This document shows, in pieces, positions 11,514-50,119 of a stretch of 64,000 bases of DNA. The notes under the pieces were generated by a model, which saw nothing but the letters and a program-made list of their open reading frames with translations, did not search any database and was not told the DNA's origin. Origin of the DNA: Ligustrum vulgare (lineage: Eukaryota; Streptophyta; Magnoliopsida; Lamiales; Oleaceae); NCBI GenBank assembly GCA_963555705.1, contig OY743169.1, forward strand, positions 6,386,014 to 6,450,013. The letters are read 5' to 3'. The translations under genes were made by a program, and so were the position numbers. Every line of letters begins with the position of its first letter. The first letter of the stretch is position 1.

Positions 11514-11561
11514 TAGAAACAAGCATGCATGTTTAATAAAAATAAAAATTCAGATGGAGAG

Positions 11562-12932: not shown

Positions 12933-13084
12933 GAGAGATTAGAGAATTGGAGGAAAAACTGTGGCACCGAAACCACACAAGTACGTACATTGGGACCTTT
13001 AGAATTAAGGTTCTGCCATGATTTTATTAATTCAAATACGAAGATTCTTAGATTACATTTTGGAAAGATAGAAGGTCAAAGTAA

Positions 13085-16070: not shown

Positions 16071-16111
16071 GAGCCTGTTTGATAATGTGAAAAGTTTTGA
16101 TTTTTGTGATT

Positions 16112-16153
<42 letters not shown>

Positions 16154-16273
16154 TTATGGATGTGTGATTGAAAAAAGTTTGAAAAGTCAAAAATTGTCAG
16201 CTTGACTAAGAATAGATGGTTGAGATTGAGTCTGAAAAGTTGATGTGAAATTTTTCCGTTACCAAACGAGCTC
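16071..16273. mobile_element. Tourist-like MITE, 203 bp
   Basis: The termini GAGCCTGTTTG and CAAACGAGCTC are inverted repeats with one mismatch, flanked by TTA at 16068-16070 and 16274-16276. A 3-bp TWA target duplication is the PIF/Harbinger signature. The interior carries an ATT microsatellite at 16111-16153. Confidence 0.85.
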
Positions 16274-16479
16274 TTAATTGGACTAAAACAAAAATGAATT
16301 CATCCAATCCAATTTTATTTATTTTTAATGTATATAACCTGTATAGAAAGATTATTTATAACAATGATTAAAAATAAAAATTCCATACACCCTTGTATAA
16401 GAAGAAATCTGTTTTGACAAAAAATAAATAAATAAATAAAATACTAATTAAAAAAAAAAAAAGCATTTTCAGCTACCTT

Positions 16480-17015
16480 AAAAAAGCTATGACCTTGATC
16501 CATTTGGTAGGCTTATATTGACATTGAAATTTTATTCCAAGAAGATAGAATTATATATTCTTGAAGATAAATTAATTTTAGGCAGCTATGTTGAATTTAA
16601 GAGTTGTTTACTTAGCTTAATTAATCAATAGTATTAGAATACACATTACACATGCTGTCCTATAAATTATAACTTATTCAACTCAATTATTCTCTTTCAA
16701 AATTTTAACCTTGTTCATGATACAAGTTGACTTATATCTGGAGGATGTAAACTTCTGTATTATTTAACCAGAGAGTTTTTGGCATAATGGCTTATCTTCT
16801 TTATCTGATGATAAAGCATTCTTAAATCTTAATAACTGTGAAGATATTAATTGTGTGTGTGTTTGGCAAATATTAATTATAATCAACACAATTTTCAATC
16901 CTACTTTTTAACCATACATCATTTCTCTCTCCAATTTTTAACCACACATCTTACCTAGAAAACACAAATAACACCAATCATATCCTGTTATAACAGTTGC
17001 CGATCTGCCTGCAAT
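16480..17015 (+). repeat. 5' flank of WAK-like copy C
   Basis: The stretch GATCCATTTGGTAGGCTTATA through TATTTAACCAGAGAG matches the flanks of copies A and B. It is interrupted at about 16855-16985 by an AT-rich piece (TTTTTAACCATACATC and TTTTTAACCACACATC) that is absent from A and B and resembles the interior of MITEs elsewhere in the window. Confidence 0.7.
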
Positions 17016-17168
17016 ATGCGTCAAAAAGCTTGCATTCTGCTCATCTTATGGCTTTCATTTAGCTTGTCCATATCAAACCAAACCGTCAACAACAGCACAA
17101 TCGCCCTACCCGGCTGCCCAACCAAGTGCGGAAATGTATCCGTTCCATACCCATTTGGCATCGGTTTA

Positions 17169-17579
17169 GAGCATCTCTAATGGCCTATTCATTGGGAAAA
17201 AATAGATTGCCACATAGGAAAAACAAATAATAGCATGAAAATTTAATCTCCAATGGTTAATTTGCATACTTATGTGGCGCTGACATGGCATGGATATTAT
17301 CTTATACTATATCTAGATGTAGATAACTTGTTAAACAATGTTGAATTTGATTTTCTGTTTCATTTTTGGTTGTTGACTGAATTTTTCTTTGCAATTTGAA
17401 GGAAGTTTGTTAATTGAGATGTTGCTAATTTGAATATACATGTATACATAAAAAAAAATAGACAAATACTATTGGGAATAAGCTTTAAAATTCACTATCT
17501 ATTTTTTCAATATATGTGAGATAATTATCTATTTAAATGCCACACAGGTTAAAATGTCCATAAACCATTAGAGATGCTC
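17169..17579. mobile_element. Tourist-like MITE inside exon 1 of WAK-like copy C
   Basis: The ends are perfect inverted repeats, GAGCATCTCTAATGG and CCATTAGAGATGCTC, flanked by TTA at 17166-17168 and 17580-17582. Paralogues A and B read straight through (ATCGGTTTAGGTGCTGG), so the empty site is known and the 3-bp duplication is exact. Insert plus duplication is 414 bp, which keeps the reading phase, but the element has a stop at its tenth base. The right inverted repeat supplies an ATG in frame with the downstream exon. Confidence 0.96.
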
Positions 17580-18334
17580 TTAGATGCTGGATGTTCCATT
17601 GGCCCATGGTTTGACATCAACTGTAATACATCTTTCAACCCTCCAAAGCCCTTTCTCAGCAGAACGAATGGCGAGATTATCAGCATAGCAGACACTAAAA
17701 TCCGTATCAAAAGCAACGGGATAGCTTCCAGATGCTATAATCGGACTGGTGGTATAACACGTCATTTTAGAACCAAATATGGCATGGAAACTGCCCCTTT
17801 CAGCCTTTCGGACGAAAATAAGTTCATAGTTGTGGGATGTGATGATGTTTCCTATATGGGAAATGCAAACACAGATAACTTAATTAGTTCGTGTGCTGCA
17901 ATGTGTTCGCAGAGCAGTGACTTGAGAGATGGATCCTGTTCTGGAATTGGCTGTTGTCAAAACTCCATTCCCAAGGGCGTAAGGATCTACACTACTTTCA
18001 TGAGCAGCTATGGAAATCACACGAAAGTTTCATCATTCAACCGCTGTGGCTATTCCTTTCTAGGAGAATCTGACAGCTATAGGTTTCATCCATCTCATGT
18101 CTCTGATCCCACTTTTGAACAAAGAATTATAGAAACAGTTTCAATGGTAGCTGACTGGGTGATTGGGAATCAAACATGTGCTGTAGCTCAGAAATCCAGT
18201 CAATTTGCTTGTCAAGGAAATAGTACCTGTGTTGATTCTGATACTGGTCTTGGAGGATATCGCTGCAGCTGCTCTGAGGGATATGAAGGAAATTCATATC
18301 TCATACCAGGTTGCCAAGGTTGGTTAGTATTTGT

Positions 18335-18565
18335 TCGAAAAGAGTGTTTGATTGCATGAGAAAAGATGGAAAGGAAAATATTTTCTAACTAATTTCCACA
18401 TTTGAGTGTTTGATTGACAAAATTTTCACGGAAATAATTTTGCACCTAAGGCTAAAAAGTGCAAATTTTCCTTGAAATCAAGGAATTTATTTTCTTAGGG
18501 GGGTGGTGGGAAAATGATTTTCATTTTCCTTTTCCACCCTCCAATCAATCACACCTATCGATCTA
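18335..18565. repeat. MITE-like insert in intron 1 of copy C
   Basis: Intron 1 of C is longer than that of B by a segment with the ends GAGTGTTTGATTGCATGAG and CCAATCAATCACACC, imperfect inverted repeats. The interior is rich in GGAAAATATTTTC-type motifs. A similar sequence lies at about 63690-63880, so it is probably a dispersed family. Exact ends are uncertain. Confidence 0.5.
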
Positions 18566-20742
18566 ATCTATGGATAAACAAAAATGAATTATCAAAGAGC
18601 AACGAGAACAACGTATATCTCCTTTGGCTCAGCCATGACTCTTGTCACTTTGATTATGTTTTCAGACATCAATGAATGTGAGACCAATCCGTGTCATCAA
18701 TACGGAATCTGCACTAATACTCCAGGTGGTTATAAATGCTCTTGCCAACATGGTTACCTTGGTGATGGCAGAAAGTTTGGTTCCGGATGCATTTCCCAGC
18801 GTTCCAATAAAGAATCGTTGTTCACAGGTTTTTAACATACAGTCACCCCTGCAGTTTTACTCTTGTGTTTCTTCGCATCATGTTCTTTACGGGAAATGAA
18901 AGGAATACTCACAGGCACAGCAGTGTTTTATTTTCAATTTGGTTGTAATGTGTCCAGTTAGTTTCTAATACAGATAAATGAATGCTTAGAAGTGTTGAGA
19001 GTTCTAAAAAAGTAGCAAATGCATGAACCTGTCCAATTTGACATGACTATGTGCAGGTTTGGGTATGAGCATTGGGTTTTTATTACTGCTAACAGTTACC
19101 TATTGGATATACAAAGTAGTGAAGAAGAGGAGGAAACGTAACCGTTAACAAAAATATTTCAAACGAAGTGGTGGTCTTTTATTACAGCAACAAATATCTA
19201 CTAAGGAAGGCCACATAGAAAAAACAAAACTTTTCACAGCTAAGGAGTTGTCGAAGGCAACTGATCAGTTCAATGAAAGTAGAATACTTGGACGAGGAGG
19301 TCAAGGTACAGTTTATAAGGGCATGCTATCTGATGGGAGAACTGTTGCAGTAAAGAAGTCCAAGTTAGTTGGGGATAATCAACTGGAGCCGTTTATAAAT
19401 GAGGTCGTAATACTTTCTCAAGTTAACCACAGAAACATTGTCAAGCTACTTGGATGTTGTTTGGAGACAGAAATTCCTTTGTTGGTTTATGAATTTATTG
19501 CTAATAGAACCCTCTTCGATCACATCCATGACCCGAGTGCTGAGTTCCCCATGACATGGGATATGCGCCTAAGAATGGCAGCAGAGATAGCAGGAGCTCT
19601 CGCTTATCTACATTATGCAACTTCTACGCCCATTTATCACAGGGACATCAAGTCAAGCAATATCCTTTTAGATGAAAACTATAGATCCAAAGTGTCAGAT
19701 TTTGGAATTTCAAGGTCTGTTACAATAGATAAAACTCACTTCACCACCTTAGTGAAGGGGACCTTTGGCTATCTAGATCCAGAATACTTCCGGTCAAGCC
19801 AATTTACTGATAAGAGTGATGTCTACAGTTTTGGCGTTGTTCTCATTGAGCTTTTAACATGACAGAAACCAATATCTTCAAGTGATACAGAAGATGAAAG
19901 AGGTTTAGCAGCACGTTTTCTTATGTCCATGGAAAAAAACTGCCTTCATAGAATTCTTGATCCTAAAATTTTAGAGCATGATAGATATGAAGATATCATT
20001 GCTGTTGCTACTTTAGCATATCGATGCTTGAATTTGAATGGGAAGAAAAGGCCAACAATGAAAGAAGTCGCCATGGAATTGGAGAATGTTCTATCTAAGA
20101 GGCCAGTGACTGTCCAAAGAAATATGCAAGTAATCATCACTGAAGGGGGATCAGCAGCATTATCAGACCTCAACTCTACATGGACATCTAGTGATCTTGA
20201 GAGCATTGTACCATCAGAAACCAATCCCTTGCTATATTACACTGTTTGATAGAAACAAGCATGCATGTTTAATGTTCTTGCAATTAGGACTAAAATATAT
20301 TTGGTTTTATCATAAAATGAAATGCAACAGTAGTATAATTTTTTTTAACTTTTTGGTAGCAGTAAGATACAATAATTCAAAAAAATCTCCCAGACGGAGA
20401 GATTTGAGAATTGGAGGAAAAACTGAGGCACAGAAACCGCTCAAGTACGTAAATACCTTGGGACCTTTAGAATTAAGGTTCTGCCATGATTTTTATTAAT
20501 TCAAATATGAAGGTTCTTAGATTATATTTTGGAAAGATACTTGCACGTGTTAAGAACCCTAAATAAATTTCTTAGATTACAGTTTTGGAAGGGTATTTCA
20601 TAATGTGTTTAATGTTTATATGCAGATAAAAAAAACAGAAAGACATAGTACTTCCATCCATTTCTTCACTCTCATTTCTATGTATATAGTTTAAACCTAT
20701 CAAAAACGGTTTAAAACATATATAGATGAAAGAAAATATGTA

Positions 20743-28807: not shown

Positions 28808-29577
28808 TATAAAAGCATGCTATCAGATGGTTGTTGCAGTGAAGAAATCCAAGTCAGTCAATGCAAACCAACAAGCTAGAGGAGTTTATAAACGAGGTTG
28901 TCGTACTTCCGCAAATAAATCATAGAAATGTTGTGAAGCTACTAGGATGTTGTTTAGAGACTGAAGTTTCATTGCTAGTTTATGAATTCATTTCCAATGG
29001 AACTCTCTTAGACCTCATACAAGACGAAAGTCCCAATTTTCCTTCTTCATGGGGTGTGTGCTTGAGAATAGCTGCAGAAGTAGCAAATGCCCTTGCCTAT
29101 CTGCACTATGCGTCTCCCATTCCCGTTTATCACCGGGACATCAAGTCGAATAATATCCTTTTAGATGAAAATAGAGCTAGAGTATCCGATTTTTGAATTT
29201 CAAGGTCGATTGTGTTAGACCAAACACACTTAACCACCAAGGTCAAAGGAACGTTTGGGCATCTAGATCCAGAGTACTTTCGGTCAAATCAATTCTCGTT
29301 AAAGAGTGATGTTTATAGCTTTGGTGTCGTTATCTTCAAGTCCATCAAAAGAGGAACTAAGTTTAGTAACACGTTTTCTTTTATCTATGAAAGGAAAACA
29401 GGTTAACACAGTTCTTGATCGTCGAATGCAAGAAAATGGTGCGAAAAAAGAGATCGTTATTGTCGCTAATCTTGCAGAAAAATGCTTGCATTTAAATGGA
29501 AGTAGAAGGCCAACCCCAACCATGAAAGAAGTGGCCATGGAGTTGGACCAATTACGGATGTCTTCCAAAAGCTGATT
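28808..29577 (+). pseudogene. WAK-like kinase fragment fused to a truncated LTR
   Basis: Kinase sequence starts at 28808, exactly where the right LTR breaks off, at the position corresponding to VYKGMLSDG in gene B. It runs through [35 protein letters not shown] and the C-terminal [11 protein letters not shown] to about 29575. It is dead: TGA replaces the glycine of DFG at about 29193, the subdomain IX-X region is deleted and shifted at about 29330, and the ectodomain, transmembrane part and glycine loop are gone. It differs from copies A to C and represents another branch of the family. Confidence 0.88.
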
Positions 29578-30317
29578 TAGTCCTTTTCTTTTCTCATCTG
29601 TACTGATTCATATTCTTTCCTAGTGAAACATAAGCATCAGCCAATGTTCTTGTACTACAATTTTGTTGTGTTTTGTCATTCTAAAATTTGCTCCATAGAG
29701 TATTTCATCGAAGACTTGACAATGGCCAAGCCTGCAGGGCCACTTTCTTCCCTTAATTATAAGCTTGTTTAATCCTAAGCACATTGGAAATTAAGAGGGA
29801 TGTTCTCAACTAAGATTCTATTGAATTAATAGATTATAAATAAATTCTACTAAATTTCGTGAATTTGAATATATTTCAGAGAATCCATGAAAATTTTATT
29901 AAAAATGGTGAAATTTCAAAAGAATTAATTACGAGTATTTTTAAAGTTGAAATCCATTCAAATCTTTTGAAATCACTTTATAATGAAATTCTTATAAATT
30001 GACGAGACTTTATAATGAAATTCTTATAAATTGACGAGTTTTTAAGGGCGCCTAGATTTTAAAGGATTCAATGAAATCCATTAAAATTTTAGGGGGATTT
30101 ATTTAATTAGGATTTGGAAGGAAATTTAAAGACTTTGATGGAATTTAAAAGTTTAGGGGTATTCAATCTAGACTTTTATAAATCCATTAAAATCTTGGGT
30201 TATTCAATTTAGATTTTAACAGACTTTTAAAATGTCTTTTAAAGTCATGCATTATTCAATCGAGATTTTTTAAAATCCTTCAAAAATTATTGTTATTCAA
30301 TTTATCAATCAACCTAA
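29578..30317. other. gene-free AT-rich stretch with a short tandem duplication
   Basis: No gene is seen. A unit of about 32 bp (ACTTTATAATGAAATTCTTA followed by TAAATTGACGAG) is repeated at about 29968-30033. The right part, from 30090, is the left half of the split element listed separately. Confidence 0.6.
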
Positions 30318-30557
30318 TGTTGTGAAACTATCAAAAATTCTAAACACAAGAATTAGAGAGAGATTGAGAACTAGAGAGAAGGAGGAGAATTCTTTCTTCT
30401 TGATCAAGAATTGGTGTACAAATTCAAGCAATTCCTACCTCTATTTATAGGGAAGGAAAAGTCATTCATATCAAATTATTTACAATATATATTGGGTGGA
30501 AATTAGGTATAAAATTAGTGGTGGATTTCTTAATAATTTCCATAATTATTTATAACA
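30318..30557 (-). repeat. 3' LTR (minus orientation) of the LOG-carrying element
   Basis: 240 bp, ends TGTT...AACA. It contains CTATTTATAGGG and the run ATTTACAATATATATTGGG. It matches 36744-36983 with a single difference seen (AATTAGAGAG against AATTATAGAG). Confidence 0.93.
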
Positions 30558-30569
30558 CTCCCCCTTGAA
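30558..30569 (-). other. polypurine tract
   Basis: The plus strand reads CTCCCCCTTGAA immediately after the LTR. The minus strand is TTCAAGGGGGAG directly before TGTTATAAATAA, the usual second-strand priming layout. Confidence 0.8.
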
Positions 30570-30596
30570 TGACTTATTGCTCAATAGCTCAATTGT

Positions 30597-31387
30597 CTGC
30601 CTCGTTAAAACCTTGCTAAGAAAACCCAGTGGAATAAAACTTGAGCGAAGGAAAAAGAGTACAGCTGCTCCCCCTGATGTTGGTCATCATTAATCATTGA
30701 GTCTAATATCCAAAATGACATCAATGATAAGTAGTACAAATCATGTACTGGAAACTTGAAGTTATGAAGTGTTGCCTTCGAATTATGAAGTGCTTCATTG
30801 CTTTATTGCTTTAGTTCTTTAGTGCTGCCTTGCTTTAGGTCTGCCTCGTTAAAACCTTGTCAGTAAAACCCAATGGGACAAAATCTGAACGAAGGAAAAA
30901 GAGTACAGCTGCTGCCTCGTTAAAACCTTGTCAGGAAAACCCTGTGGGACAAAACCTGGACGAAGGAAAAAGAGTACAGCATGACAGCATGATTCTCCCC
31001 CTGAAGTGTGCAATCAAGTATTCATAAACCTTTTGAATAATGATATCATCTTTCGTCTGGAATATGTATATATGAAAATCTTCTTGTGTGTAGCCGACAT
31101 CATAACATTCTTCATAAGATGTCTATGATTTTCTTCATTTGTTGATATCATTTCAGCACAATTTAAAGAGAGAGCTTGTTGTTGAATTATTACTCGCAGA
31201 TAGCTGTGACAATGTCTCAAAAACCTTGCTAGGAAAACCCTGTGGGACAAAACCTTAGCGAAGGGAAAAAGAGTACATTATTCTCATTGATACGCCATAA
31301 TTGCTCCATAATTGCTGCCTCATTAAAAACCTTACTAGGAAAACCCTATGGGATAAAACCTCAGTTAAGGGAAAAAGAGTGCAGAGA
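30597..31387 (+). repeat. five copies of a roughly 70-bp repeat
   Basis: Copies begin near 30597, 30841, 30911, 31212 and 31313. Each reads approximately CTGCCTCGTTAAAACCTTG, then AGGAAAACCC, GGGACAAAACC and GAAGGAAAAAGAGTACAG. Copies 2 and 3 are directly adjacent and the others are spaced. The unit lies at the 3' end of the element in its own orientation. Confidence 0.88.
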
Positions 31388-33518
31388 GTATTTGTTCCCT
31401 TCATAGGAATATCACAAGTATATTAATGCATCTCAAATTATTTCATCATATATTTTGTGATGAGCTTTTATAAATAGTTTATAACTCATTTATGAAGCCA
31501 TAGCTCATTTATGATATACTGAACATTCTATACCAATCAATGTTTAGTTAGTTGACTGATTGCATTACTCAAATCTAGAATTGATTCACTTCTATCAAAA
31601 TCTAGAATTCACTTCTAATGAATAATTAAATATTCATTTTCAAATTCACTTCTGGTGAATATTCATTTTCCAAATTCATTTTCCCGAATTCATTTTCCGG
31701 TGGATAATATAATTTTGCATATTGAAAATCAATTGCATGCCCAAATATTCAAATATAATAATAGTACACTCCAATTTCATTTTCAACATATTATATTATG
31801 GGGTTATATGTATCATATCATTCTTCATGTGATTTTATTTTAAGAATCACATTTCATTCTATAATGATATTATTTTTGGTCAAATTGAATCTTTCAATGA
31901 TTTATACATGTACGTTCTTGCACTTTATAAACTGCAATTTCTAATTTGCAGGAACATAATCAATCATTGAAATAGATATCAATTTCGACATATAATCTAT
32001 AATCATTTCGCTTGAAATTCCAACGTACCGCGATCAACTGGTACATCAAAGAAAAACTCCCAAAGTACCGAGATGAGAATCACACTTTTTGATCTCACTC
32101 ATTGGTATATCAAAGAGCTCAAACTAGTGAATTTAGACTATAGTCTATCCACCATATTTCATGCCAGTTTTATGAAAAATTTCCCGCGCAACTAGTCGTC
32201 TTTTACAACTGTGAAATATTTTTCATTTGTACATATAATTACTGGCTTTACACATTTAAGTGTTTTGGACTTCAGGTCCTATAACAATAATCCCTATATT
32301 GGGATTTTATATTTGGCCAAAGTATTATATTTTCATCAACCTCATTTTCATAAGAGGGTTGTATGTATGCAGTCGACTTATTTATTGATTCCATTTTATG
32401 TTAATATAAACATATGATAGAGAGATCTCTTTGTATTTTTATCATCAGGCCTGAATCTCTTATCATTTAACTATGTCCCTTTCACTCACTATGAGTATTT
32501 AGCCTCAAAGGGATCATCTCAATTATTCAAGAGATATTTGTTTTTGGAATCGATTGTCATTATGCTTCAGGTATAATTACGCTTTAAGCTTGATCACGCT
32601 TCATGCGTGTTATTGTTTAATTTCCCCATAATATTCAAGAATCTTGTATTATATCAGTTGGCTAACAATGCCGCAACACATGTCATTCATAATTATGGAT
32701 ATAATCATAATATTATATCTAAGTGCGTTTTGTTGGAGTGTATATAGATATCGCACTTTTTAGAAATCATAAAGCTTTACAAGCAAATCTTTATTTCATC
32801 GTATTGACATGTTTGTATGTGGAATATTGCTGCATAAGGAATATTTATATTTAAGTTGTTCTCATAGAACTTGAGGCTTTTAATTTGCTAAATCTTTAAC
32901 AATATAATATTCTATTATCTCAACTAATTCATAAAATCATTGATGACTTTAAGATATATTCATGCTAGCATTTATTACTTTGCTCGTAATATCATTACTT
33001 GAGAAATTAATCAGTCATTCATTTTCTTAGTGAGATAATTAATTTGCTTTTCAGAACAAGCAGCAATGATAACTTGTTAACCTGGACAATCTTCTGGTTC
33101 TTTAATGAATGCCATTTTGCATTCTCAATAAATCTCATTATTGAATTGGAATCTAACCAATCATTATAAAACTTCTGGTTCAGTAAGATATTTCACTTGT
33201 ACATATGTATGAACTTCTGGCTCAATACAGTATTCATTTCATCAGTACGTATTTCTGTATAGTTCAAATCAGTATACCTTTATTACTTTTAGTATACCGA
33301 AAAAATCAGGTACAATATCCAAGGAAATATCTCATGATCTCAATCTTGTCGCCAAATCTTCCCTTATTTCGAAAAAGGTAATGACGCATTATCTCATTGT
33401 TCCCACCTTTTCAATAATTTATTCCATTATTTCTTGATGGAATCGATATTGCTGACACACGGAGCGCTCCTTTACGCGTTTAAATATATCATTTGGGAAG
33501 AGATTAGATCCATAAAAA

Positions 33519-34064
33519 ATGGATGTTATATTATCAAATATTCGCAAATATTATTCTAATCTTCCGGTAAATGTTTTGAAAATGATTTACCGAGTTCGAC
33601 TTGAAAGATTGAGGCTGCTGATGGATCAAGGCTTTCCAGAAGATGTTCGTTGGTTGATCGAAGCAAAAGTTCGATTAGCTGGTGAATTACCAGATTCATT
33701 TTCTAAACACATGCCTGGTTTAGGTAAGAGTACTTTTGCAAAGAAACGAAGAGCAAAAAGGCTTAACGGTTGTTACAAATGTGCTCGTTGGACATGTGAT
33801 ACTCGTTGCAAATCAGTAGGATATTCTTCTAAAAATCGGGATGATAAAATCGATTTCATTAAGGGTGGACTGAGTAAGGAATCATTGGATGATATCCGAT
33901 TGACTCTTGAGACGCACCCAAGTGGGTATGTGCAACGTGAACTCCTTTCCTTATATGCTCAATTTAACGAGGATAAAAATCGTTATAGTCTCGAAAATAT
34001 AGTAGCAAAAGATCCTGTTTGCCAGGCTGTTATAAACAATGATGTTTTGGCTATGCAGCATTAA
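33519..34064 (+). CDS. Cys4 zinc-finger-like basic protein, plant-virus NABP-like
   Basis: This is an uninterrupted 181-codon frame from ATG 33519 to TAA 34062, antisense to its host LTR element. Residues 1-60 look helical. Residues 67-81 carry a basic stretch (GLGKSTFAKKRRAKR), followed at once by four cysteines at 85, 88, 93 and 97 (C-x2-C-x4-C-x3-C). The remainder, to 181, is charged with no transmembrane segment. A GRSTxAxRRRA-like basic arm followed by a cysteine cluster is known from the nucleic-acid-binding/silencing-suppressor proteins of carlaviruses and relatives (Betaflexiviridae). The cysteine spacing here differs, so homology is a hypothesis. It could be a captured viral gene, a captured host gene, or an element-specific protein. 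The LOG-like ORF follows 275 bp downstream on the same strand. An upstream TTTAAATATATC could act as TATA. Confidence 0.55.
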   Translation: MDVILSNIRKYYSNLPVNVLKMIYRVRLERLRLLMDQGFPEDVRWLIEAKVRLAGELPDSFSKHMPGLGKSTFAKKRRAKRLNGCYKCARWTCDTRCKSVGYSSKNRDDKIDFIKGGLSKESLDDIRLTLETHPSGYVQRELLSLYAQFNEDKNRYSLENIVAKDPVCQAVINNDVLAMQH

Positions 34065-34339
34065 TACAAGGTAAATCAGTATATTGTGTGTTTATATTTG
34101 TACATAAAATATTTTCATATTTCATTTCTCGAGTATTGATAAAGTGTATTAAAAAATCACCGAAAGGTAAGCTTTATCAAAAGTAGTGTAATTTAGTCAG
34201 AATTAGGTTTTCACTTTTTCAAAAGATGAGCAGTAAATAGTGAAGTTTTTCAAATTTAAAAAGCCAATGATTTTCACAGTTTCATACATCCCAAAATATC
34301 ATTTTGACATAAGTTTTTCTTTTCCTTATTCTCTTAAAG

Positions 34340-34993
34340 ATGGAAGGACCAAAACTTCGACAGATCAAAACTATCTGTGTATTTTGTGGATCAAAAGTAG
34401 GAAAAGGTTTTGGGTATCTAGAAGCAGCCGTGGATTTAGGAAAGAAGTTGGGAGAGAAAGGTATCAATCTAGTATATGGAGGAGGTAGCAGTGGATTGAT
34501 GGGTTGTGTTTCCCAATCTGCTCAAGCAGAGAAATCAAGAGTGATAGGTGTTATACCTACTCCTTTAGCTGATATCGCAGGCAAAACACGAGGGCATGAA
34601 GTACAAACCTTATCTATCCATGAACGCATAACTTGCATGTTATATGGTTCTGATGCCTTCATTGCCATGCCTGGAGGTTTTGGTACTTTAGAGGAAATCT
34701 TTAATATTACCTCCTGGGCTCATTTAGATCTCCATACCAAGCCTATTGGGCTTTTAAATGTTAACAATTTCTTTGATGGTTTGCTAACATTTCTTGATTA
34801 TGCTGTGGAACAGGGATTCATCTCTCCATTTTCTAGGAGAATCCTTATTTCTGCTCCTACTATCGAGGAACTGTTGGATAAGCTGCAGGCATATATCCCC
34901 ATACAAGATCCAGCAGGAGTTAAGATAGATTGGTCGCAAGGAAGGGGAATCAAGCGAAAATGGAGTCCGGTTAATGTAAACTTAGCTTTGTGA
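34340..34993 (+). CDS. LOG-family cytokinin riboside 5'-monophosphate phosphoribohydrolase-like, intronless
   Basis: A 217-aa intact frame from ATG 34340 to TGA 34991. Signatures of the LOG family: TICVFCGS (11-18), LVYGGGSSGLMG (44-55), VIGVIP (68-73), HER with the conserved Arg at 96, SDAFIAMPGGFGTLEE (104-119) with the catalytic Glu at 119, then KPIGLLN (134-140) and VEQGFISP. LOG enzymes cut ribose-5-phosphate from cytokinin nucleotides to release active free bases in the cytosol. Length is normal. Oddities: plant LOG genes normally have several introns and this has none, and it lies inside an LTR element on the strand opposite to the element's sense. The usual Lys-Ala-Glu after the conserved Arg is replaced by Ile-Thr-Cys, so activity is uncertain. 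The AAAGATGG start context is good. It looks like a retro-copied LOG that has diverged since capture. Confidence 0.85.
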   Translation: MEGPKLRQIKTICVFCGSKVGKGFGYLEAAVDLGKKLGEKGINLVYGGGSSGLMGCVSQSAQAEKSRVIGVIPTPLADIAGKTRGHEVQTLSIHERITCMLYGSDAFIAMPGGFGTLEEIFNITSWAHLDLHTKPIGLLNVNNFFDGLLTFLDYAVEQGFISPFSRRILISAPTIEELLDKLQAYIPIQDPAGVKIDWSQGRGIKRKWSPVNVNLAL

Positions 34994-35004
34994 ACCCTAG
35001 AATA

Positions 35005-35215
35005 GATGGTGGTAGAGTATGGAGTATTCTTACTCTTGAGACACACCTTAAATTTCTAGGATTTTATCAATGTTTCTTCTTGTGTACCTCAAAGATAGGT
35101 GGTAGAGTAAAGAGTATTCTTACTCTTGAAACACACCTCTTTGAGTGTTTCTTTATGTCCTCAAAAGTTCAGAGGTGGTAGGATACGGCTACTCCCGAAA
35201 CACATCTCTAATTTT
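35005..35215 (+). repeat. three tandem copies downstream of the LOG-like ORF
   Basis: Three diverged units start near 35007, 35098 and 35172. They share GGTGGTAGAGTA, GAGTATTCTTACTCTTGA and AACACACCT, with a degraded third copy. GAGTATTCTTACTC is a near-palindrome that could fold. They begin 14 bases after the LOG stop codon and so fall in the 3' UTR of any transcript. Confidence 0.75.
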
Positions 35216-36726
35216 GAGGATCATAAATGTTTCCTCCCTTTTGTAAGACTTGTTTTATGCTTCTTCAGGAGCAATAATAATATCATTTCAGCATGTTTAG
35301 ATGATAATTTTTACTTCTGGTATAAATATGTACTTCTTCTGGAATACATAATTGCTCGTGCAAGAACTTTTTCAGATACTTATCATCTAATATTCATCTC
35401 ATAATACTGATGAGATTATTTTCACATTAGCTATGTCCATGCTATCATGTGATATTATCTTATCATACATCAACATTCTTTTGTTGGATAATCCATTTTT
35501 ATCTATCTTTTCAATACAGATAATGGTAACTTCTGGTACCGTTTGATAAAATATTTTTTATCAACTTTTTATCAATATTTACCAACTTTTGGTAATGATA
35601 ACTTCTGGTATTATTTGATAAAATATTTTCTAACTTTAGTATTGATAACTTCTGGTATCATTTAATGAAATATTAAATAACAATAATATCAATAATAATA
35701 CTGGGGTTATACCACCACGTATATATGTTGACAACAACCTCTAATATGTTAGAATTAACCAACAACTGAGGTGTTTCTGAAATAATATAAAACTTGAATA
35801 TACGTAAAGTATTCCGTAAACCGACCATATAGGCAGTGTCAACATAATGAAATAATTACCTTTCATGAGTGAGCGAGTCATATCCTCCAGTCAAGGTATT
35901 CATAATAGTGATCAAGTCATATCGTCAAATCCAGTCAAGGTACTCATAATAGTCCAATCCGTTGCGGTATAAATTCAGTCCATAATAATTCAATCCGTCA
36001 CGGTATGACAATGATTATTTTTACTTATACCTTGTTTAAAATCTTTATTTTATCTTGTTGATCATATATTAATCGTTAATTTTCGATTAATTTACTTTTA
36101 TGTATTACCAAGGGTAAAATTGTCCATATTTTAATATGTTGCTCATATGGATAAATCAAAACCGTCAATAGGTTTGAAATTTAATTTAGAATAAACTTAC
36201 TTTTGGTCCGAAGTTCAAAATCTCGTCGGAAGTGCTTCAAAAACGGTTTTTAAGAAAACCGCCACGTTCGATCGTCGGAAAATCTCAGAACTGCACAAAA
36301 CAGAAAAGTAAGATCTTAGAAAAATCAAGATCGTCGATATGAACAAACTGCCTGTTGACGTCGTCGCCTGAGTCCTCCACACGCGCCGTCACGCGCCGCC
36401 TCGACGTCTGCGCGTGGTCTTCACGCGCTTCACGCGCCGCCGCGCCGGTGCCGGTGACGTCGACACGCGCCGGTTCGGAAGAATTGTCCGGTCGCCGTGC
36501 TCATGGATCCGGTCTCCGATCATCATTTGGATATATGGTTTGGCGTGAATTTGGTTTGGAAGTTTCGGATTATACAATTTCTTCAATTTTTCTACGTATT
36601 TGGAATTGATCTTCTAATCTATGATGTATAAATGATGATTAATAATAATCTGATTTCTGATACAGATGTTCATCATTTAGATGCAACTGTAGAGCATACT
36701 CCCGTCATATTACTCAATAGGGTAGA

Positions 36727-36743
36727 GACTCGTGCTGATAACG
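36727..36743 (-). other. primer binding site
   Basis: The plus strand reads GACTCGTGCTGATAACG just before the right LTR. The minus strand, CGTTATCAGCACGAGTC, follows the LTR end ACAACA and fits a tRNA 3'-end-complementary primer site. The priming tRNA was not identified. Confidence 0.65.
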
Positions 36744-36983
36744 TGTTGTGAAACTATCAAAAATTCTAAACACAAGAATTATAGAGAGATTGAGAACTAG
36801 AGAGAAGGAGGAGAATTCTTTCTTCTTGATCAAGAATTGGTGTACAAATTCAAGCAATTCCTACCTCTATTTATAGGGAAGGAAAAGTCATTCATATCAA
36901 ATTATTTACAATATATATTGGGTGGAAATTAGGTATAAAATTAGTGGTGGATTTCTTAATAATTTCCATAATTATTTATAACA
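36744..36983 (-). repeat. 5' LTR (minus orientation) of the LOG-carrying element
   Basis: 240 bp, nearly identical to 30318-30557. The CCTAA target duplication follows at 36984-36988. Confidence 0.93.
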
Positions 36984-39208
36984 CCTAACAAAAATTTGGA
37001 ACATAATTGATTTTGATGAACTTTGAGTACAAAGTATAAATAAGAATTCTCTTTATTTCTCCACAACCTAACCTAAAGACTTTGCTCGATTTCTTTTCTC
37101 CTATTAACGACAGCAGCGATAATCTGTATACCCACAAAATTCTCAGAGAACTTCTCCAAAGGCATCGAACTACTCCGCACCAGAGCCTCCTCCTCCAGCC
37201 GATTCTTGATTTATTTATTTTTGTTATTTTCCCCCATTTTTTAATCACAAATATTTATTGTCCTAAAACTATTTATCTCTCACAATGTAATTTTTTTTTT
37301 CCAATTCGCTTGACATTTTCAAGTTTTTCAATTAAAAAATAAAAATCTGTAGAAGTCTTTAAAAGTCTATGAAAATCTTTTAAAATCAATCTACAAAAGT
37401 CCATCAAAGTCTTTTAAATAAATGTCCACAAAAGTCTTTGAAAATCTATACAAATCCATAAAAGTCAATTAAATCCAATTAAAAAAAGTCTTTAAATGTC
37501 TTTCAAAATCTCAATTGAATAAACCCCCCTTAGTTGTGGTTACCTAGATTTTATGAATATTAACGAAAGTCAATAAAATCTCAATGTTAAAAGGACCTTA
37601 AATTCATTAAAATGTCAATTGAGGACACTCATGTAATCCTCATTTTGCACCCATTGCAAGAAATATTGTGACGACTCTAGTGAGTATGTCCCTAAGTTAA
37701 AGTTTAAATTGTAAGATTTCAAAGCACTTGGAACACACTTCTCTAACTTTTATCCAATATACTTGTAACAATGATATAAGAGCGAACAATCCAAAATTTT
37801 TCTTATGGCGGTTGAAACTTAACTTGGAGGAGAGGGTGTTGGAGGGGACAGGGCCCCCTGCTGGGGATTGGAAGTAACGCCCTCGAAATTTTTTTAGTGT
37901 ACATTACTTTAGTATGAAATTTATATAATTAGAATGACAATAATATATGATGTAAAAAATTCATCAAGGCACTAACAAAATTATATTTGAAATCCTCTAA
38001 TGAAGAACTGCAACGTCCCGAAAACTAAACAAGTTTAATTATTTTTGAAAAGTTAGATCACCTTTGTGTATGGATAGAACTAGATTTTAAAATATGGGAT
38101 ATCATAAATCTGTATATATTTATGAAGAATAAATTAAAAAGATAAATTATTTTACCTCAAAAAAAAAAAAAAAAAAAAAGATTTATGTGCCCACCGAAAA
38201 GTGCATAAAGCATTGCCATTAATTGCTATCCATACTATATTATATTTTGAAGTCCGACTGTTTATCATTTGTTTACAAAATAACTGATTTCAATTTCAAT
38301 TTTTTTTTTTTTTCAATCATTTGTGTCCAAATCTTAAATTAATTTTCGATACAACAATTTTTTTTTTATACCTAAAAAGTATATATATTTTTGGGAAAAT
38401 AATACTATTTTGATTATCTTTACCTCAAAAAAAAAAAAAAAAAAAAAAAATACTATTTTGATTATTTTGAACTCTGACAGTTTATTATATGTTTACTAAG
38501 AGCTTTTTTTTATTTTCATCAAAATTTTCTCATTTTTCTACAGTACTCAATCTCATTCATTCATTAAAAGTCAAGTCCACAATATTTAACTTTTCAACCA
38601 TTCATTCTCCCTAAAATCATTATTCATTTAAAAAAAACTCATTTTAACTAAAATTAAACACACACTAAAACTGATTTAAGTTTTTTTTTTTCCCAATCAT
38701 TTTTGTCCAAACTATTTTTTTTATAGGAACTTTTTTTTTTATATAAGAATTGTTTTCGGGAAAATTAACAATGAGACAATCCCTTAAAAATTAACTCAAA
38801 TTAACAATGAGACAATCCCTTAAAAATTAACTCTGATATTCATTTTTTGTACAACTCTTAAACAATAAAATTTTTAAACTTTGCACTTTCTAGAGTATAT
38901 GAATCAATCCAAAAATTAACATCAAAACCTAAAAAATATACTTTGTATTTTCTACTAATTAAAAAAAATTATTCTTATACTAATTAAAAAAACTCGAGTA
39001 GATTATGTGACTATTGTCTTTGTTTTTTATTCTTCAACTAATTAAAAAAATTTATTAGTAAACCAGTAAGTAATCTAATTGCAAGGTTTACTGGAACTTG
39101 AAAATAATAAATACAATAATTGGTAACAAAAATATAAATTAGCCAAAACAATTTCATTATGGAGAAGTCCGTTAATTGAGAACATCACCAACATTAGCTC
39201 TAATCGAA

Positions 39209-44296: not shown

Positions 44297-44654
44297 GAAG
44301 AAATTATGAAGTATGAGTAATGTTGAAAGTGAATTCCCTTGCTTCAAAAAAAAATTAAAAAGGAATATAATTTTACTTATAAGGAGGTGGCATCATAGGT
44401 GGGAATGAGCCTAAGTTTTAGTGTTGTAGTGTAAAATTGTGTGTGTGTGTGTGTGTGTAAAATAAAGAAAATAAAATTTAAACGTTGATTAATTGAAATA
44501 TTTCATGGAAAACAACATTTTTTGTGCAAAATTTATGCGTTGAATTAAAATCTAAAGGTTAAATTATTAAGACCTTAACATCTTTTGATGTTCTGGCTCT
44601 CGATAATGTAACAGATAATTGTCCATGAGAAAAAACAGGTAGAGGAAGATATAA
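44297..44654. repeat. inverted-repeat arm of the Helitron region, left
   Basis: This arm covers the C-terminal helicase codons and 3' flank of the main Helitron copy. It is repeated in inverted orientation at 49946-50308. Both include a (GT)n or (AC)n run, AACGTTGATTAATTGAAAT, and GGAGGTGGCATCAT or its diverged complement. Confidence 0.9.
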
Positions 44655-47600
44655 ACCAACAAAATCTAATGTTTGTCCTTGTGCTTTGTTGATAGTCATT
44701 GCAAAACATGGTCTTATTGGAAATTGAGTTCTTTTAAATGGAATTGAAGTCTTGTCGCTCTCTAACGGTATGAATGGAATTCTTGGTAAAAATGTCGGTT
44801 TGCCAACATATTCTCCAGATATAATTTCAGCAGCTATTAGGTTTTTTTCAAATTTTTTGCAAACCAATCTTGTTCCATTACAAAGTCCTTCAGATGGATT
44901 AATATTTCGCAACAACATGACTGGACAATTCAGTTTTAGGTTTAGTTCATGTGGCGAAATGCCATTTGGGGATAAACTATTTAAGAAGTCTTCTTGGAAT
45001 GTTTGTTCATATTTATCAGTCGTTTCATCAAAACTATAATATGTATACATTTGGCCGTGTAATTGATGTAATAGTAGATTATTTATTTGATCTACGGATT
45101 CATTTTTTGGTGTTAAAATAACTCTATTCATGACTTCACTCAAATTATCTATATAGGATTCCATATGCGGAAAAACAATCTCAATAAGATGTTTTAGAGA
45201 TGTCAGTTCGTCGTCGAATTGGAGTGTAATATTGTGAGGAAGTGTAATGGAGTCACATAGATGTTGTTTTTCGGTTCCATTGCCAATTCGTAGTAAATAT
45301 TTACAAAATTGTGGATCCATAAAAGCCCGCATGTTTTGCACAAGCGAGAATTTTATAAAGTAATGCCATAGAGGTGACGACACTAAACAAGCTTTCATTA
45401 TGTCTTCACGTTTTCCTCGTTGTACTACAGGTAAAACTTGTCTAAAATCTCCTCCTAAAAAAATAACTTTTTCACCAAATGGAAGTGTGGAATCCATAAT
45501 ATCTTTTAATAACTTGTCCACTGCTTCTATTGGGTAACGATGTATCATTGGAGCTTCATCCCAAATAATTAATTTACATAATTTCAATATTCTACCTATT
45601 GCTGATTGTTTTGTAATTGAACAATTTATAGTTCCAATTGTGTCTAAAGGGGTTTTAAATGTCGAATGAGCAGTACGTCCATTTGGTAATAAAGACGCAG
45701 CTACTCCTGATGATGCAGTCGCTATTGCAACTTGGTTTTTAGATCTAACATTTCCTAAAAGTGCTTTATACAAAAAAGTTTTACCAGTTCCTCCAGGGCC
45801 ATCGATAAAGTAAATATTAGAAGAGGAATTTATGACCGAATCCACAATTTTGTCATATGCATATCGTTGTTCGTTGTTTAAATTTTGTTCATAGAACGTT
45901 ATAGATTCATTGTCTGTATTTAGTATTTCTTGTGCAAACATTCTATCGAATCTTTCGTTGTCGTCTATATTAATAGTATGTGGTACAATTCCATAATCAT
46001 TTAAATTCTTTCTAGATGTCTCTAGTATGGAACCGATTTCATGTAGAGTTTTAAGTTCGGCTAATTCCTGTGATATCCCGTTATATATATAATCTTCAGA
46101 CATATTATACTTGAATTTGTCCCATAATAGTTTTGGGTCGTTTGGATTGCATAACGTTAATAAAGTTGAAAATAATTTTCGAAGAGAATCGGGCATTTGA
46201 TAAATTATTCCTTCTGACATGCATTGTTCACAATGATTATCTCCACTTAGTAGCCCATGTAGTAAAGCTAATTCTCGAAATGTATCAACTGTAATACCAT
46301 TAACTATTTTCAAATTCTGAAATGACAATGCACCTTTGACATGATTTAAGAGTACTCTTAAGAAATAACGTTCTCCTTCAATTGGGTTTGCATTGACAAT
46401 TCTTCCAATAACGTACAGTCCAAATTTTATTAGATGTGTTCCATACAAAATGTGTTGGGAAATCTTTATATAATATTGTTCGGGCAAATGAATTTGATAC
46501 ATTGGTCCTAAAATATTTTGTTAACATTGTTTTTTTTGCGTTATTTTTGTTGATCACATTTGTTAAAATATCTTCATCATGATATGTTATTAAATGTTGA
46601 TTTTCGAGATGTAATTGTAAGGATATAACAGTTGGAGAAATATCAGATAAAGGGAAAGAATAAATTCTCCATGATGCTTCTGGAGGAGAAATCCATCTAC
46701 CATTTTGAAAATCCGAAATTTCATCAATATTATTATGTTCTTCATTTGTACACATGGAGAAATTGACACGATCATGTCCTTTATAAATGCATTTATATAA
46801 ATATTTAACAGCTTTAACAGAAGAACATATTTCTATGTTTATATGACAGTCAAATTTTGCAGTTAAATAACGATTATGAGGAACAACCCATCGATTGTCG
46901 AGATAATGACCTCTAACATTAACAGAATGTCCATTGTTTGAGCGTTTGTAGATAGGGTATGAATTTTGACCTAAAGAAGTAAATACAGAGTAATCTCGTG
47001 GATATTTATTTTTACATGTTTGATCAGATTTCATACAAACATTTTTGTGATTTACCGATCCACAAGGTCCATGAATCATATGTTTAACAACAGTAGAATG
47101 TAAATATGGGTATGTATGTTCATCAGGTAATTCACAAGTTACAATTTTGTCTACCTGAGATGGTGTAAAAAATTTACAATTATTTTGAAATATTAACAAG
47201 AAATGTGCATGAGGTAGACCTCTCTTTTGAAATTCGACTACATAAATATAAGCTGCTATTGGTCCTAGAACATGTTTGTTTAAAAGGTCATTTTTTAATT
47301 CTTCAAGTTTAGCTTTAAAAACACGAGCAATAAGATCAGGTCGATTTTGTGAGATATCATAATATTGTAATTCATGTTTAATTTCTGGCCAATTAAGATT
47401 GCATGTCATAGTTAAAAAAATATCTGGTTTTCCATAACGTTGTACAAGAGCCATTCCATCTCTATATCTTTTTTGCATGTCCCTAGGTCCACATGTGAAT
47501 GACTGAGGTAGTATAATTTTTTTTCCAATCATATGTCCTTTATTTTCTTCATTTTGAATACTATCGACTATTCCTTGGTAAAGTTCAGCACATATTTGAG

Positions 47601-47803
47601 TTTGATTTTGACGAAAGTAGTCAAGTCTAGAAGTTTCAATTTTAATGTACATGTCAACAAAATATTGTTGTAAGATTCTACCAGAATGTAGTAAAATAGA
47701 ATTACCTGGTGAGCGAATCTGCAACTTATAGCAATAATATTCTCTACAGGATACCTGGAATCTTTTCTTACCGTATTTCAATGCTGTGAACGAATGGTAG
47801 TGT

Positions 47804-47891
<88 letters not shown>

Positions 47892-48904
47892 GAAAAATAA
47901 CAAGAAATAAAAATATGTAATTAATATGAAATCGTATATTTAAATTTACCTTGAGACTCTTTATGAATAAGTTGTTCAGGATCTGTCATATTGATTGGGT
48001 GTAACAGTTCGTTGATGCTATCATTTGATTGATGTAATGTAGATTTCTTTCTTTGAATGCCTTCATGCCATCCGTGTTCACCATATGTGAATAATAACGG
48101 GTACTGTAAAGGATCATAACATCCATAATAATAGTGAACTTTATGACATTGACCAGAGTGGCTATAAATGGAAATATCTCGTGATCTAATATCTGCAGAT
48201 GGGTCATCTTCGACCCATATTCCAGCAATTTGAGAAGTTGAAGGTGCATTGTAAATTCGTTGATCAAGATCAGGATGACATCTAATTTGAAGGCGTTGTG
48301 TGCGCAAATTTATATCATTGTTTAAGGAGCGAAAAAAAGTTGAATAAAGATTATGTCTAAGTATTTCAATAATTTGTAAAAGCACTGGTTCAATAAATTT
48401 CTCTGAGCTTTGAAGACGATTATATAGTTCATGTTCAGTATCATAAAAATATAATTGTAAGTAAGAAGCAGTTTTTTCAGATTGAGGTAAAAGTTGGTTT
48501 ATATAATGATACACTTGTCCTTGAACTCTAAATGTATATATCCCTTTATTTGCTTTACATAATTCCTTATCGTATTTTACTCCGAAAGATGTGAAAGCAA
48601 AATGATTGTTATAGGTTCTAACAACAGTCCTAAAATGTGACGAGTTTGTAGAATTAGATGTGAACAATTGAAATAAATTATCTGGTGGAGACTGTGAATG
48701 TAATTGTATTTTTCCAGAAGAACAACAAAATCCTTTACTTTCTGTGTGAAACTTTTTAGCACTACAATGACTACAATAAATTGAATGAGGTAATTGATAA
48801 AGACTTGTAGGTATAGACAACGTTGATATATTATTTTGTGAATGATGAGATTGTGAGATGACAGTTGTTTCAGTATTTGTATATAGTAAAAGAAGTTGTT
48901 TCAA
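44559..48904 (-). pseudogene. Helitron Rep/Pif1 helicase, frameshifted
   Basis: This is a rolling-circle transposase-helicase read from high to low coordinates. The first part, 47950-48904, has CSHCSAKKF and CCSSGK zinc-finger-like cysteines. An intron at 47784-47949 (AAG-GTAAAT ... TTCACAG) contains a (TA)n run. The Rep part, to about 46410, carries FLTMTCNLNWPEI, the HUH motif in GLPHAHFLL, and the tyrosine region YLYKCIYKGHDRV. A frameshift near 46410 separates WTVR from IGRIVNANPIEGERYF. The Pif1-like helicase, 44559 to about 46410, has Walker A GPGGTGKT, Walker B IIWDEAPM and the terminal VTLSRARTSKDV. An additional N-terminal exon probably lies at 49100-49280 (KRVNRSSTNRVKNYRARNK). Apart from the frameshift the frame is nearly complete, suggesting recent activity. 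Confidence 0.9.
47806..47885. repeat. (TA)n microsatellite in the Helitron intron
   Basis: About 40 TA units without interruption, placed between the inferred splice donor at 47949 and acceptor at 47784 of the Helitron gene. Confidence 0.97.
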
Positions 48905-49073
48905 ACGTCAATTGAGTGTCAAATTGGTACGGAATCAGACTGTTATGACGGTTGTCTGCAAAAAAAGAGTGCAAATAAATGTAGCAGTAATAGTATTGTG
49001 TACTATAAAATAGAAAATAAATTATAGTAAATATATTTTTAATAAGAGATATATAGTTAAAGAAATTTATTAA

Positions 49074-50119
49074 TTAATTTATATTATATATACATAGAAT
49101 GAATGTAATTATACATGTGGATGAGTTGTTCCGTCGACGTTTATCAACATGTGATAAATTTGATGCTTTATTTCGAGCTCGATAGTTTTTTACTCTATTT
49201 GTACTAGAGCGATTAACACGTTTTCCAGTTGTTTTATGTATTGTATCATCAATGGGTTGATTTGTTGATGTAGAAGTACCTTCCATTGCCAATTCGTAGT
49301 AAATATTTACAAAATTGTGGATCCATAAAAGTCCGCTGTTTTGCACAAGCGAGAATTTTATAAAGTAATGCCATAGAGGTGACGACACTAAACATGCTTT
49401 CATTATGTCTTCACGTTTTCCTCGTTGTACTACAGGTAAAACTTGTCTAAAATCTCCTCCTAAAACAATAACTTTTTCACCAAATGGAAGTGTGGAATCC
49501 ATAATATCTTTTAATAACCTGTCCACTATTTCTATAGCGTAACGATGTATCATTGGAGCTTCATCCCAAATAATTAATTTACATAATTTCAATATTCTAC
49601 CTATTGCTGATTGTTTTGTAATTGAACAATTTATAGTTCCAATTGTGTCTAAAGGGATTTTAAATGTCGAATGAGCAGTACGTCCATTTGGTAATAAAGA
49701 CGCAGCTACTCCTGATGATGCAGTCGCTATTGCAACTTGGTTTTTAGATCTAACATTTCCTAAAAGTGCTTTATACAAAAAAGTTTTACCAGTTCCTCCA
49801 GGGCCATCGATAAAGTAAATATTAGAAGAGGAATTTATGACCGAATCCACAATTTTGTCATATGCATATCGTTGTTCGTTGTTTAAATTTTGTTCATAGA
49901 ACGTTATAGATTCATTGTCTGTATTTAGTATTTCTTGTGCAAACGTTATATCTTCCTCTACCTGTTTTTTCTCATGGACAATTATATGTTGCATTATCAA
50001 GAGCTAGAACATCAAAAGATGTTAAGGTCTTAATAAAACCTTTAGATTTTAATTCAACGCATAAATCTTGCACAAAAAATGTTGTTTTCCATGAAATATT
50101 TCAATTAATCAACGTTTAA
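49074..50119 (-). pseudogene. rearranged partial second Helitron helicase copy
   Basis: 49281-49944 is almost identical to 45275-45939 of the main copy (Walker A, DEAP box), with a one-base deletion at about 49337 that shifts the frame after LVQN. At 49945 it joins, head to head, the helicase C-terminal codons in plus orientation (LPLPVFSHGQLYVALSRART, then SKDVKVLIKPLDF) through 50119. At the other end it abuts 49100-49280, whose minus-strand frame KRVNRSSTNRVKNYRARNK looks like the Rep N-terminus of the main gene. The open frames across these junctions are therefore chimeras and not one protein. High identity dates the rearrangement as recent. Confidence 0.85.

Follow-up and report, generated by a model that had tools for sequence, protein, structure and literature searches.

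To our knowledge, no function has been established for the extra ORFs that plant LTR elements carry in antisense, and the escape of retrotransposons from RNA silencing in plants is a central open question. Such ORFs have been described in Grande (gene23), RIRE2, Retand (TRP28) and PvRetro13, where they are proposed to encode accessory or regulatory proteins, some of them nuclear or possibly DNA-binding (PMC7264820, PMC11963269). The terms "cytokinin", "nucleic acid binding" and "carlavirus" do not occur in the main texts of these two papers. YgdH/LOG domains have already been published in Ty3/gypsy LTR retrotransposons of Citrus sinensis and C. clementina (PMC9289625, citing Steinbauerova 2011), and LTR retrotransposons of poplar were also found to carry the domain once a count filter was dropped (PMC9289625). 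In the available sections of that account, no nucleic-acid-binding protein (NABP) partner, EAR-like tail or altered active-site residues are mentioned, and "nucleic acid binding" is absent from its main text. Among RNA viruses, the cysteine-rich proteins of flexiviruses have been described as silencing suppressors, one of them being a transcription factor that causes hyperplasia (PMC10141686, PMC12172455).

Like those of Citrus and poplar, the element examined here has an additional domain of LOG type, which has become fixed in LTR retrotransposons of plants (PMC9289625), and like Grande, RIRE2, Retand and PvRetro13 it carries its extra ORFs in antisense orientation. It differs from the former, as they are described, in its LTRs of 240 bp and in the lack of a recognisable gag-pol; unlike the latter, whose extra ORFs are reported from the region between pol and the 3' LTR, it has no recognisable pol. 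The first-pass annotation knew of no described plant LTR family with this pair of genes. A search of titles and abstracts likewise returned neither the pair, nor NABP-type genes in LTR retrotransposons, nor EAR tails of retroelement LOGs, and within the reach of that search the virus-type partner, the NABP and LOG pair and the tail appear to be new; the LOG-type domain in LTR elements was already in print (PMC9289625).

Anatomy and coding content of the element

The window, that is, the whole stretch of 64,000 nucleotides that was analysed, contains two 240-bp LTRs on the minus strand, the 3' LTR at 30318..30557 and the 5' LTR at 36744..36983, which differ by a single mismatch. They start with TG, end with CA and are directly flanked by the target-site duplication CCTAA (left copy 30313..30317, right copy 36984..36988, neither assigned to a strand). 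A polypurine tract, TTCAAGGGGGAG on the minus strand, adjoins the left LTR at 30558..30569, and a putative primer binding site, CGTTATCAGCACGAG, is located directly inside the 5' LTR at 36729..36743, also on the minus strand; with up to two mismatches allowed, the latter is unique in the window. Since both signals lie on the minus strand, this is the sense of the element. The anatomy is that of an LTR retrotransposon and agrees with the first-pass annotation in the LTRs, the target-site duplication and the strand of the primer binding site and polypurine tract. Near the polypurine tract, at 30595..31383 on the minus strand, a repeat of 59-78 bp (families D2 and D3) occurs in five diverged copies.

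Two intact ORFs are present on the plus strand, ORF1 at 33519..34064 (181 aa) and ORF2 at 34340..34993 (217 aa), separated by 275 bp, as had been noted before. When the interior was shuffled 300 times with its dinucleotides preserved, the longest ORF starting with ATG measured 80 aa in the median and 181 aa at most, a length reached in one shuffle; the two ORFs are considered truly coding because of their family matches, the shuffle test not being the deciding evidence. A Pfam search gave zero matches in the three minus frames of the element, and those in the three plus frames were confined to the two ORFs. Consequently, no Pfam-recognisable gag-pol remains, so that the claim of an element devoid of gag-pol holds to the reach of Pfam, and the coding region of an autonomous element was not found in any of the six frames. 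A remnant of gypsy-type pol, sought in the window with the pol of a second locus (L001, see below) as the query, was not found either. On balance, the element is probably a non-autonomous LTR retrotransposon of plants that inserted recently and for which an autonomous partner would supply gag-pol.

ORF1, a flexivirus-type nucleic-acid-binding protein

ORF1 matches PF05515 with 34.3 bits (cut-off 23) and PF01623 with 25.3 bits (cut-off 20.9). With both Viral_NABP and Carla_C4 above their curated cut-offs and with a C4 zinc-finger-like motif, CYKCARWTCDTRC (33771..33809, plus strand), preceded by a basic KKRRAKR stretch, the product belongs to the flexivirus NABP family, which refines its earlier description as nucleic-acid-binding-like. 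The same two profiles and the same arrangement of a C4 finger beside a basic stretch characterise the flexivirus CRP/NABP proteins (carlavirus CRP/p12, mandarivirus, allexivirus CRP). In contrast to these, ORF1 is retrotransposon-encoded, its viral profile match is partial, spanning residues 38-120 of 181 (about 83 residues), and there is no viral genome around it: the flexivirus setting, at the 3' end of the genome and beside a coat protein, was not recovered by the six-frame Pfam search.

Databases contain 339 relatives of ORF1 at E<=0.001, and among the best 120 of these, plants such as Orobanche, Striga, Populus, Acer, Xanthoceras and others are named, two of the clusters comprise 566 and 315 member sequences, and the C4 pattern is kept in 109. 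In the aligned family (n=37), Viral_NABP matches 32 proteins and Carla_C4 29 (E<=0.001); the tree of the family was built from 72 of the 120 listed proteins together with the window and L001. The closest listed relative, on a contig of about 1 kb, is 92% identical over 81% of ORF1 and lacks its first 34 residues. Compared with the ORF of L001, ORF1 shows 62% amino acid identity, with dN 0.28, dS 0.86 and a ratio of 0.33 (NG86; bootstrap 0.21-0.56), a figure that describes this one sequence pair; other estimators gave dN 0.26 and dS 0.62 (LWL85) and dN 0.24 and dS 1.46 (maximum likelihood). In this one comparison, ORF1 is under purifying selection.

By analogy with its viral relatives, for which these activities are reported, the product of ORF1 may suppress RNA silencing or act as a transcription factor. 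Scans of viral contigs with ORF1, ORF2 and both alignments, one of them covering 600 stretches, gave zero relatives in a collection that is perhaps poor in plant RNA viruses. The structure model of ORF1 is poor (mean pLDDT 63), and with this query nothing significant was obtained among viral structure models (best E 0.6). Among the 28 non-significant structure matches are three named as silencing suppressor, RNA-binding or nucleic-acid-binding proteins, from Fig latent virus 1, Grapevine virus D and Grapevine virus H, as well as a 15-kDa protein from Cherry mottle leaf virus; we take all four viruses to be flexiviruses.

ORF2, a separate branch of the LOG family

ORF2 scores 115.5 bits against PF03641 (cut-off 27) and 161.6 bits against TIGR00730 (cut-off 96.35), its predicted structure superimposes on that of the plant LONELY GUY protein LOG3 (At2g37210, PDB 2a33) with a TM-score of 0.95 on target length (Foldseek), and it carries the PGGxGTxxE motif, as do 109 of its 120 listed relatives. 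It is thus a member of the LOG family and, like LOG3, retains the fold, the nucleotide-binding motif and the catalytic Arg and Glu. It is unlike LOG3 in the replacement of Lys100 and Glu125, in a basic and EAR-like C-terminal tail and in its position on a separate branch. The counts out of 120 given here refer to the best 120 of 339 matches for ORF1, of 2998 for ORF2 and of 7997 for canonical LOGs. In the LOG tree, a branch with an SH-aLRT of 100 separates 60 entries, the window among them, from the rest. Besides the window and 3 PDB fragments, the tree comprised 59 window-type and 23 canonical LOGs out of 120 each, taken as the first 60 and every fifth entry, proteins of at least 260 aa being excluded. 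The NCBIfam equivalog model NF058542 (cut-off 300 bits) is not diagnostic, because the window protein (106.5 bits) and the three canonical plant LOGs tested (127-132 bits) all fall below it. The closest listed relative is 91% identical and comes from a contig of about 1 kb, different from that of the closest relative of ORF1. For ORF2, selection may be read from protein conservation only. The branch as a whole may be retroelement-borne.

The EAR motif is LxLxL or a close form of it at the C-terminus. ORF2 ends with a basic KRK patch and the sequence VNVNLAL (34952..34990, plus strand), the latter a weak EAR form in which V replaces L at two places of the alternating pattern. An EAR-like tail is present in 94 of the 120 listed window-type relatives (90 with the strict form) vs 0 of 120 canonical LOGs; of the 26 relatives without the pattern, some are truncated. 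The predicted tail (residues 201-217) has a pLDDT below 50. Judged from its motif, it may be a putative repressor or recruit a TOPLESS-type corepressor.

Possible role and origin of the cassette

We incline to the reading that the two genes form an accessory cassette which selection maintains in LTR retrotransposons of plants, here antisense to the element transcript and possibly involved in anti-silencing or host reprogramming. The small basic zinc-finger protein encoded by the first gene, a homologue of flexivirus NABPs, would most likely bind RNA or DNA in the host cell and, by homology, weaken RNA silencing or alter host transcription. The second gene, with the LOG fold and the catalytic Arg and Glu kept, the purine/prenyl pocket changed and the basic, EAR-like tail added, would most likely act on another nucleotide substrate, or have turned into a nuclear protein that senses nucleotides or recruits corepressors. 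Jointly, the two could make retrotransposition easier in the host cell, to the benefit of the element. A bolder form of this proposal is advanced only tentatively: a long-carried, two-part module of counter-defence and host reprogramming, in which a silencing suppressor that RNA viruses also possess is joined to a LOG turned nuclear corepressor recruiter with a new nucleotide substrate, the zinc-finger family having been exchanged between retrotransposons and flexiviruses in either direction. Both proteins are directly testable, one being a homologue of viral suppressors and the other, linked to it, a LOG relative whose pocket is rebuilt and whose tail is EAR-like. If the proposal is true, RNA viruses and retrotransposons have a gene family in common, and caution is due before the abundant LOG copies of this kind are labelled cytokinin-activating.

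ORF2 had in fact been annotated as a cytokinin-activating enzyme, and the corresponding alternative, a true LOG through which the element would increase active cytokinin and sustain host cell division, is considered unlikely. In the numbering of the Corynebacterium glutamicum enzyme, transferred by alignment through AtLOG3, the catalytic Arg99 and Glu122 are found together in the window and in 111 of the 120 listed window-type relatives (120 of 120 canonical LOGs), which, like the LOG fold and the PGGxGTxxE motif, favours this alternative. In contrast, Lys100 is kept in 1 of the 120 relatives and Glu125 in none, vs 120 of 120 canonical LOGs for each; the window has Ile and Asn, respectively. 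The residues lost from the branch on this alignment are, in a characterised LOG, contacts of adenine or proposed contacts of the prenyl group. Lys100 is listed among the AMP contacts of the C. glutamicum enzyme, and alanine replacements of such contacts are reported, for the group as a whole, to nearly abolish activity, S19A excepted (PMC4979012). In favour of the cytokinin reading, the prenyl pocket of that enzyme was placed by superposition only (PMC4979012), and wheat LOGs sharing the conserved residues differ in activity, which these residues fail to predict (PMC11593424). The replacements, together with the EAR-like tail of most listed members, leave the annotation unsupported as it was worded; they weaken the cytokinin claim and are not proof against it.

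Regarding the origin of the cassette, it is possible, though doubtful, that a gypsy-type piece with the NABP and LOG genes was inserted in reverse into this non-autonomous element as a one-off event, the cassette being foreign to the family. In L001, the NABP gene adjoins a gypsy-type integrase in sense orientation, and no pol remains in the window element by Pfam or by comparison with the pol of L001. This reading is opposed by the near-identical LTRs with the putative primer binding site and polypurine tract in place, by the finding that no repeat of at least 30 bp other than the LTRs occurs both to the left and to the right of the cassette, and by the similar nearness of the closest listed relatives of ORF1 and ORF2. 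In the single element copy analysed, the cassette could still be a nested late insertion. It is improbable that the two are cellular genes, a host-domesticated pair recently acquired by the element from an expressed locus. Some relatives in annotated genomes do bear ordinary gene names (for example LOGL10 of Diospyros and poplar), and both ORFs are uninterrupted, as after copying from mRNA, but several clusters per genome (many entries of Reevesia, Orobanche and Populus, for instance) and clusters of hundreds of sequences are better suited to mobile copies, and the neighbouring integrase in L001 also speaks against host genes. Even less probable is an endogenous viral element, a non-functional 3' fragment of a flexivirus integrated by retroelement machinery. 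The NABP match of ORF1 and published integrations of RNA viruses in plant genomes (PMC3136472) are consistent with it; however, no match to a coat protein, triple-gene-block or replicase was found in the six frames, ORF1 shows purifying selection in its one comparison, its relatives lie in plant chromosomes, one of them beside the gypsy-type integrase, and the partner gene is LOG-like.

As for the selected cassette favoured here, both genes look like a maintained accessory module and not a chance capture, since relatives of each are widespread in plants, full length for a large share of those listed. A scattered capture in decay, the outcome against which the first-pass annotation had asked for further copies and dN/dS, is countered by these relatives, by the purifying selection on ORF1 (0.33 in one pair) and by linkage of the pair elsewhere. 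The antisense orientation holds for the window element and not for the NABP gene of L001, the single confirmed locus among 42 pattern-matching stretches in a scan of genome contigs and the sole gypsy-type element read. In this other plant contig, the NABP ORF follows a gypsy RNase H-integrase on the same strand, the long DNA match to the window is limited to the ORF, and no LOG was found in the 983 bp after it. Linkage is evident from three Orobanche gene models with both domains (P0013, P0018 and P0119, among the best 120 of 339); of 241 LOGs compared with the LOG parts of these models, that of the window comes 2nd, 2nd and 1st. It is further indicated by equal-sized contigs in the NABP and LOG match lists, compared by the longest contig per entry (105 of 120 NABP and 89 of 120 LOG entries, those with megabase contigs or no size being left out): 7 vs 3.5 expected overall (P 0.06), 4 vs 0.7 above a size of 1500 (P 0.005) and 3 vs 0.29 above 2000 (P 0.0025), the sources agreeing within each of the last three pairs. 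The pair at 1558 joins entries of different sources and may be due to chance.

The LTR element and its age

The element at 30318-36983 has 240-bp LTRs that differ by a single mismatch, TG...CA ends and CCTAA on both flanks, and its purine tract and putative primer site both lie on the minus strand; the anatomy described in the first-pass annotation is confirmed. The claimed absence of gag-pol likewise holds, as none was found by Pfam on the minus (sense) strand. On the plus strand, Pfam matches are limited to ORF1, the NABP gene (33519..34064, 181 aa), and ORF2, a LOG paralogue (34340..34993, 217 aa). Assuming 1.3e-8 or 7e-9 substitutions per site per year, the LTR divergence (K = 0.0042, 1 mismatch in 240) would place the insertion at about 0.16-0.30 million years ago, a single mismatch giving the order of magnitude only. 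A pair of 46-nt inverted repeats, 85% complementary, is located at 30091-30136 and 37485-37530. Since these repeats lie just beyond the LTR element on either side, its insertion target may have been a MITE-like inverted-repeat element.

The NABP gene and its gypsy-type counterpart

ORF1 exceeds the curated cut-offs of both Viral_NABP and Carla_C4, the cysteine-rich nucleic-acid-binding proteins of flexiviruses. A search of 5.8 billion proteins yields 339 relatives; the C4 pattern is present in 109 of the best 120, and 55 of these 120 have a length of exactly 182 aa. Among those listed, matches with a named source sit on contigs of megabase size from Orobanche, Striga, Populus, Acer and Xanthoceras. 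In the NABP tree, ORF1 and one relative, P0001, group with nine Orobanche- or Striga-named proteins (11 rows, SH-aLRT 97), a placement that hints at a host plant from the neighbourhood of these genera.

A counterpart is found on L001, a contig from another assembly, which carries RNase H, integrase zinc-binding and integrase core domains. Its NABP ORF lies on the same strand, 192 bases past the stop of the integrase frame, with a purine-rich tract on its 3' side. In this arrangement NABP is an extra gene, in sense, placed after pol and before the 3' end of a gypsy-type element. No LOG was found in the 983 bases after it, so NABP also occurs without LOG or at a different spacing. Over 181 codons, ORF1 and the L001 ORF show 50, 36 and 73 differences at codon positions 1, 2 and 3, and the measured dN/dS is 0.33 (NG86; bootstrap 0.21-0.56), with values of 0.43 and 0.17 by other methods. 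The long DNA match is limited to the NABP ORF. This single comparison shows purifying selection on the NABP protein since the two copies diverged.

This plant-type gypsy contig is filed under a Candidatus Nomurabacteria genome assembly and is, to all appearance, plant contamination of it. At 2345-2413 of L001, another 22 residues can be read in frame beyond the NABP stop. They resemble the extended C-terminus of P0105, a longer relative that terminates in an EAR-like NLSLSL, and may reflect stop readthrough or a longer form of NABP.

Silencing suppression is reported for viral relatives of ORF1, and one of these, p12 of chrysanthemum virus B, is reported to cause hyperplasia as a transcription factor (PMC10141686, PMC12172455). 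By homology, ORF1 could shield the element from silencing or change host transcription.

The LOG paralogue

ORF2 is a LOG by both profile and fold. It belongs to a branch of its own, apart from the canonical plant LOGs: a split with SH-aLRT 100 places ORF2 together with 59 sampled relatives, and opposite them 23 canonical plant LOGs with two Arabidopsis PDB fragments. In C. glutamicum numbering, the catalytic Arg99 and Glu122 are both retained in 111 of the 120 listed relatives, and His97 in ORF2 itself and 41/120. In contrast, Lys100 and Glu125, each present in all 120 listed canonical LOGs, are kept by one and none of the 120 relatives, respectively. In the C. glutamicum enzyme, Lys100 is described in the adenine site, both residues are among the proposed prenyl contacts, and alanine changes of AMP-contact residues, as a group and S19A excepted, nearly abolished activity (PMC4979012). 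Given these losses and the crippling effect of AMP-contact changes, cytokinin activation by the branch is doubtful; the branch may still have such a role, since wheat LOGs with the same conserved residues are reported to differ in product (PMC11593424). Of the proposed LOG-type cytokinin-activating enzyme, the enzyme family stands, and the activity is in question.

The C-terminus offers a further distinction. Inside the last 8 residues, an alternating L/V/I pattern occurs in 94 of the 120 listed relatives (90 strict LxLxL) and in 0/120 listed canonical LOGs; shuffling the last 40 residues 500 times gave a mean of 7.9 and a maximum of 19. LxLxL is the plant EAR motif, which recruits TOPLESS-type corepressors. 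A basic patch lies inside the last 18 residues in 105/120 relatives. ORF2 itself carries VNVNLAL, a weaker form of the EAR-like pattern, in a tail (residues 201-217) with pLDDT <50 in the predicted structure. ORF2 could act in the nucleus via this tail, or on a new nucleotide.

Pairing of the genes and other features of the window

NABP and LOG domains occur together in three Orobanche gene models, whose LOG parts are closest to the sub-branch of ORF2 (ORF2 ranks 2nd, 2nd and 1st among 241 LOGs). Among the listed matches, 3 contig sizes >2000 are common to the NABP and LOG lists vs 0.29 expected. By this measured linkage and the double-domain models, the pairing predates the window element.

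LTR retrotransposons with a LOG-type (YgdH) domain have already been described from Citrus and poplar (PMC9289625), and additional antisense ORFs whose function is unknown are well known in plant LTR retrotransposons (PMC7264820, PMC11963269). The literature searched yielded nothing on a virus-type partner, the NABP-LOG pair or the EAR-like tail in LTR retrotransposons. Within that literature, the earlier statement that no described plant LTR family is known to have this pair stands.

Elsewhere in the window, a minus-strand Helitron at 44559-50000 contains reading frames for Helitron_like_N and a PIF1 helicase; another helicase piece, duplicated in part, is discernible by eye. A wall-associated-kinase-like gene cluster, with some members apparently broken and two of its ORFs checked by Pfam, occupies 3629-19862 and 28861-29575. 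A Copia-type reverse transcriptase fragment (RVT_2) lies at 13686-15125, and an exostosin GT47 glycosyltransferase-like gene at 57655-61344.
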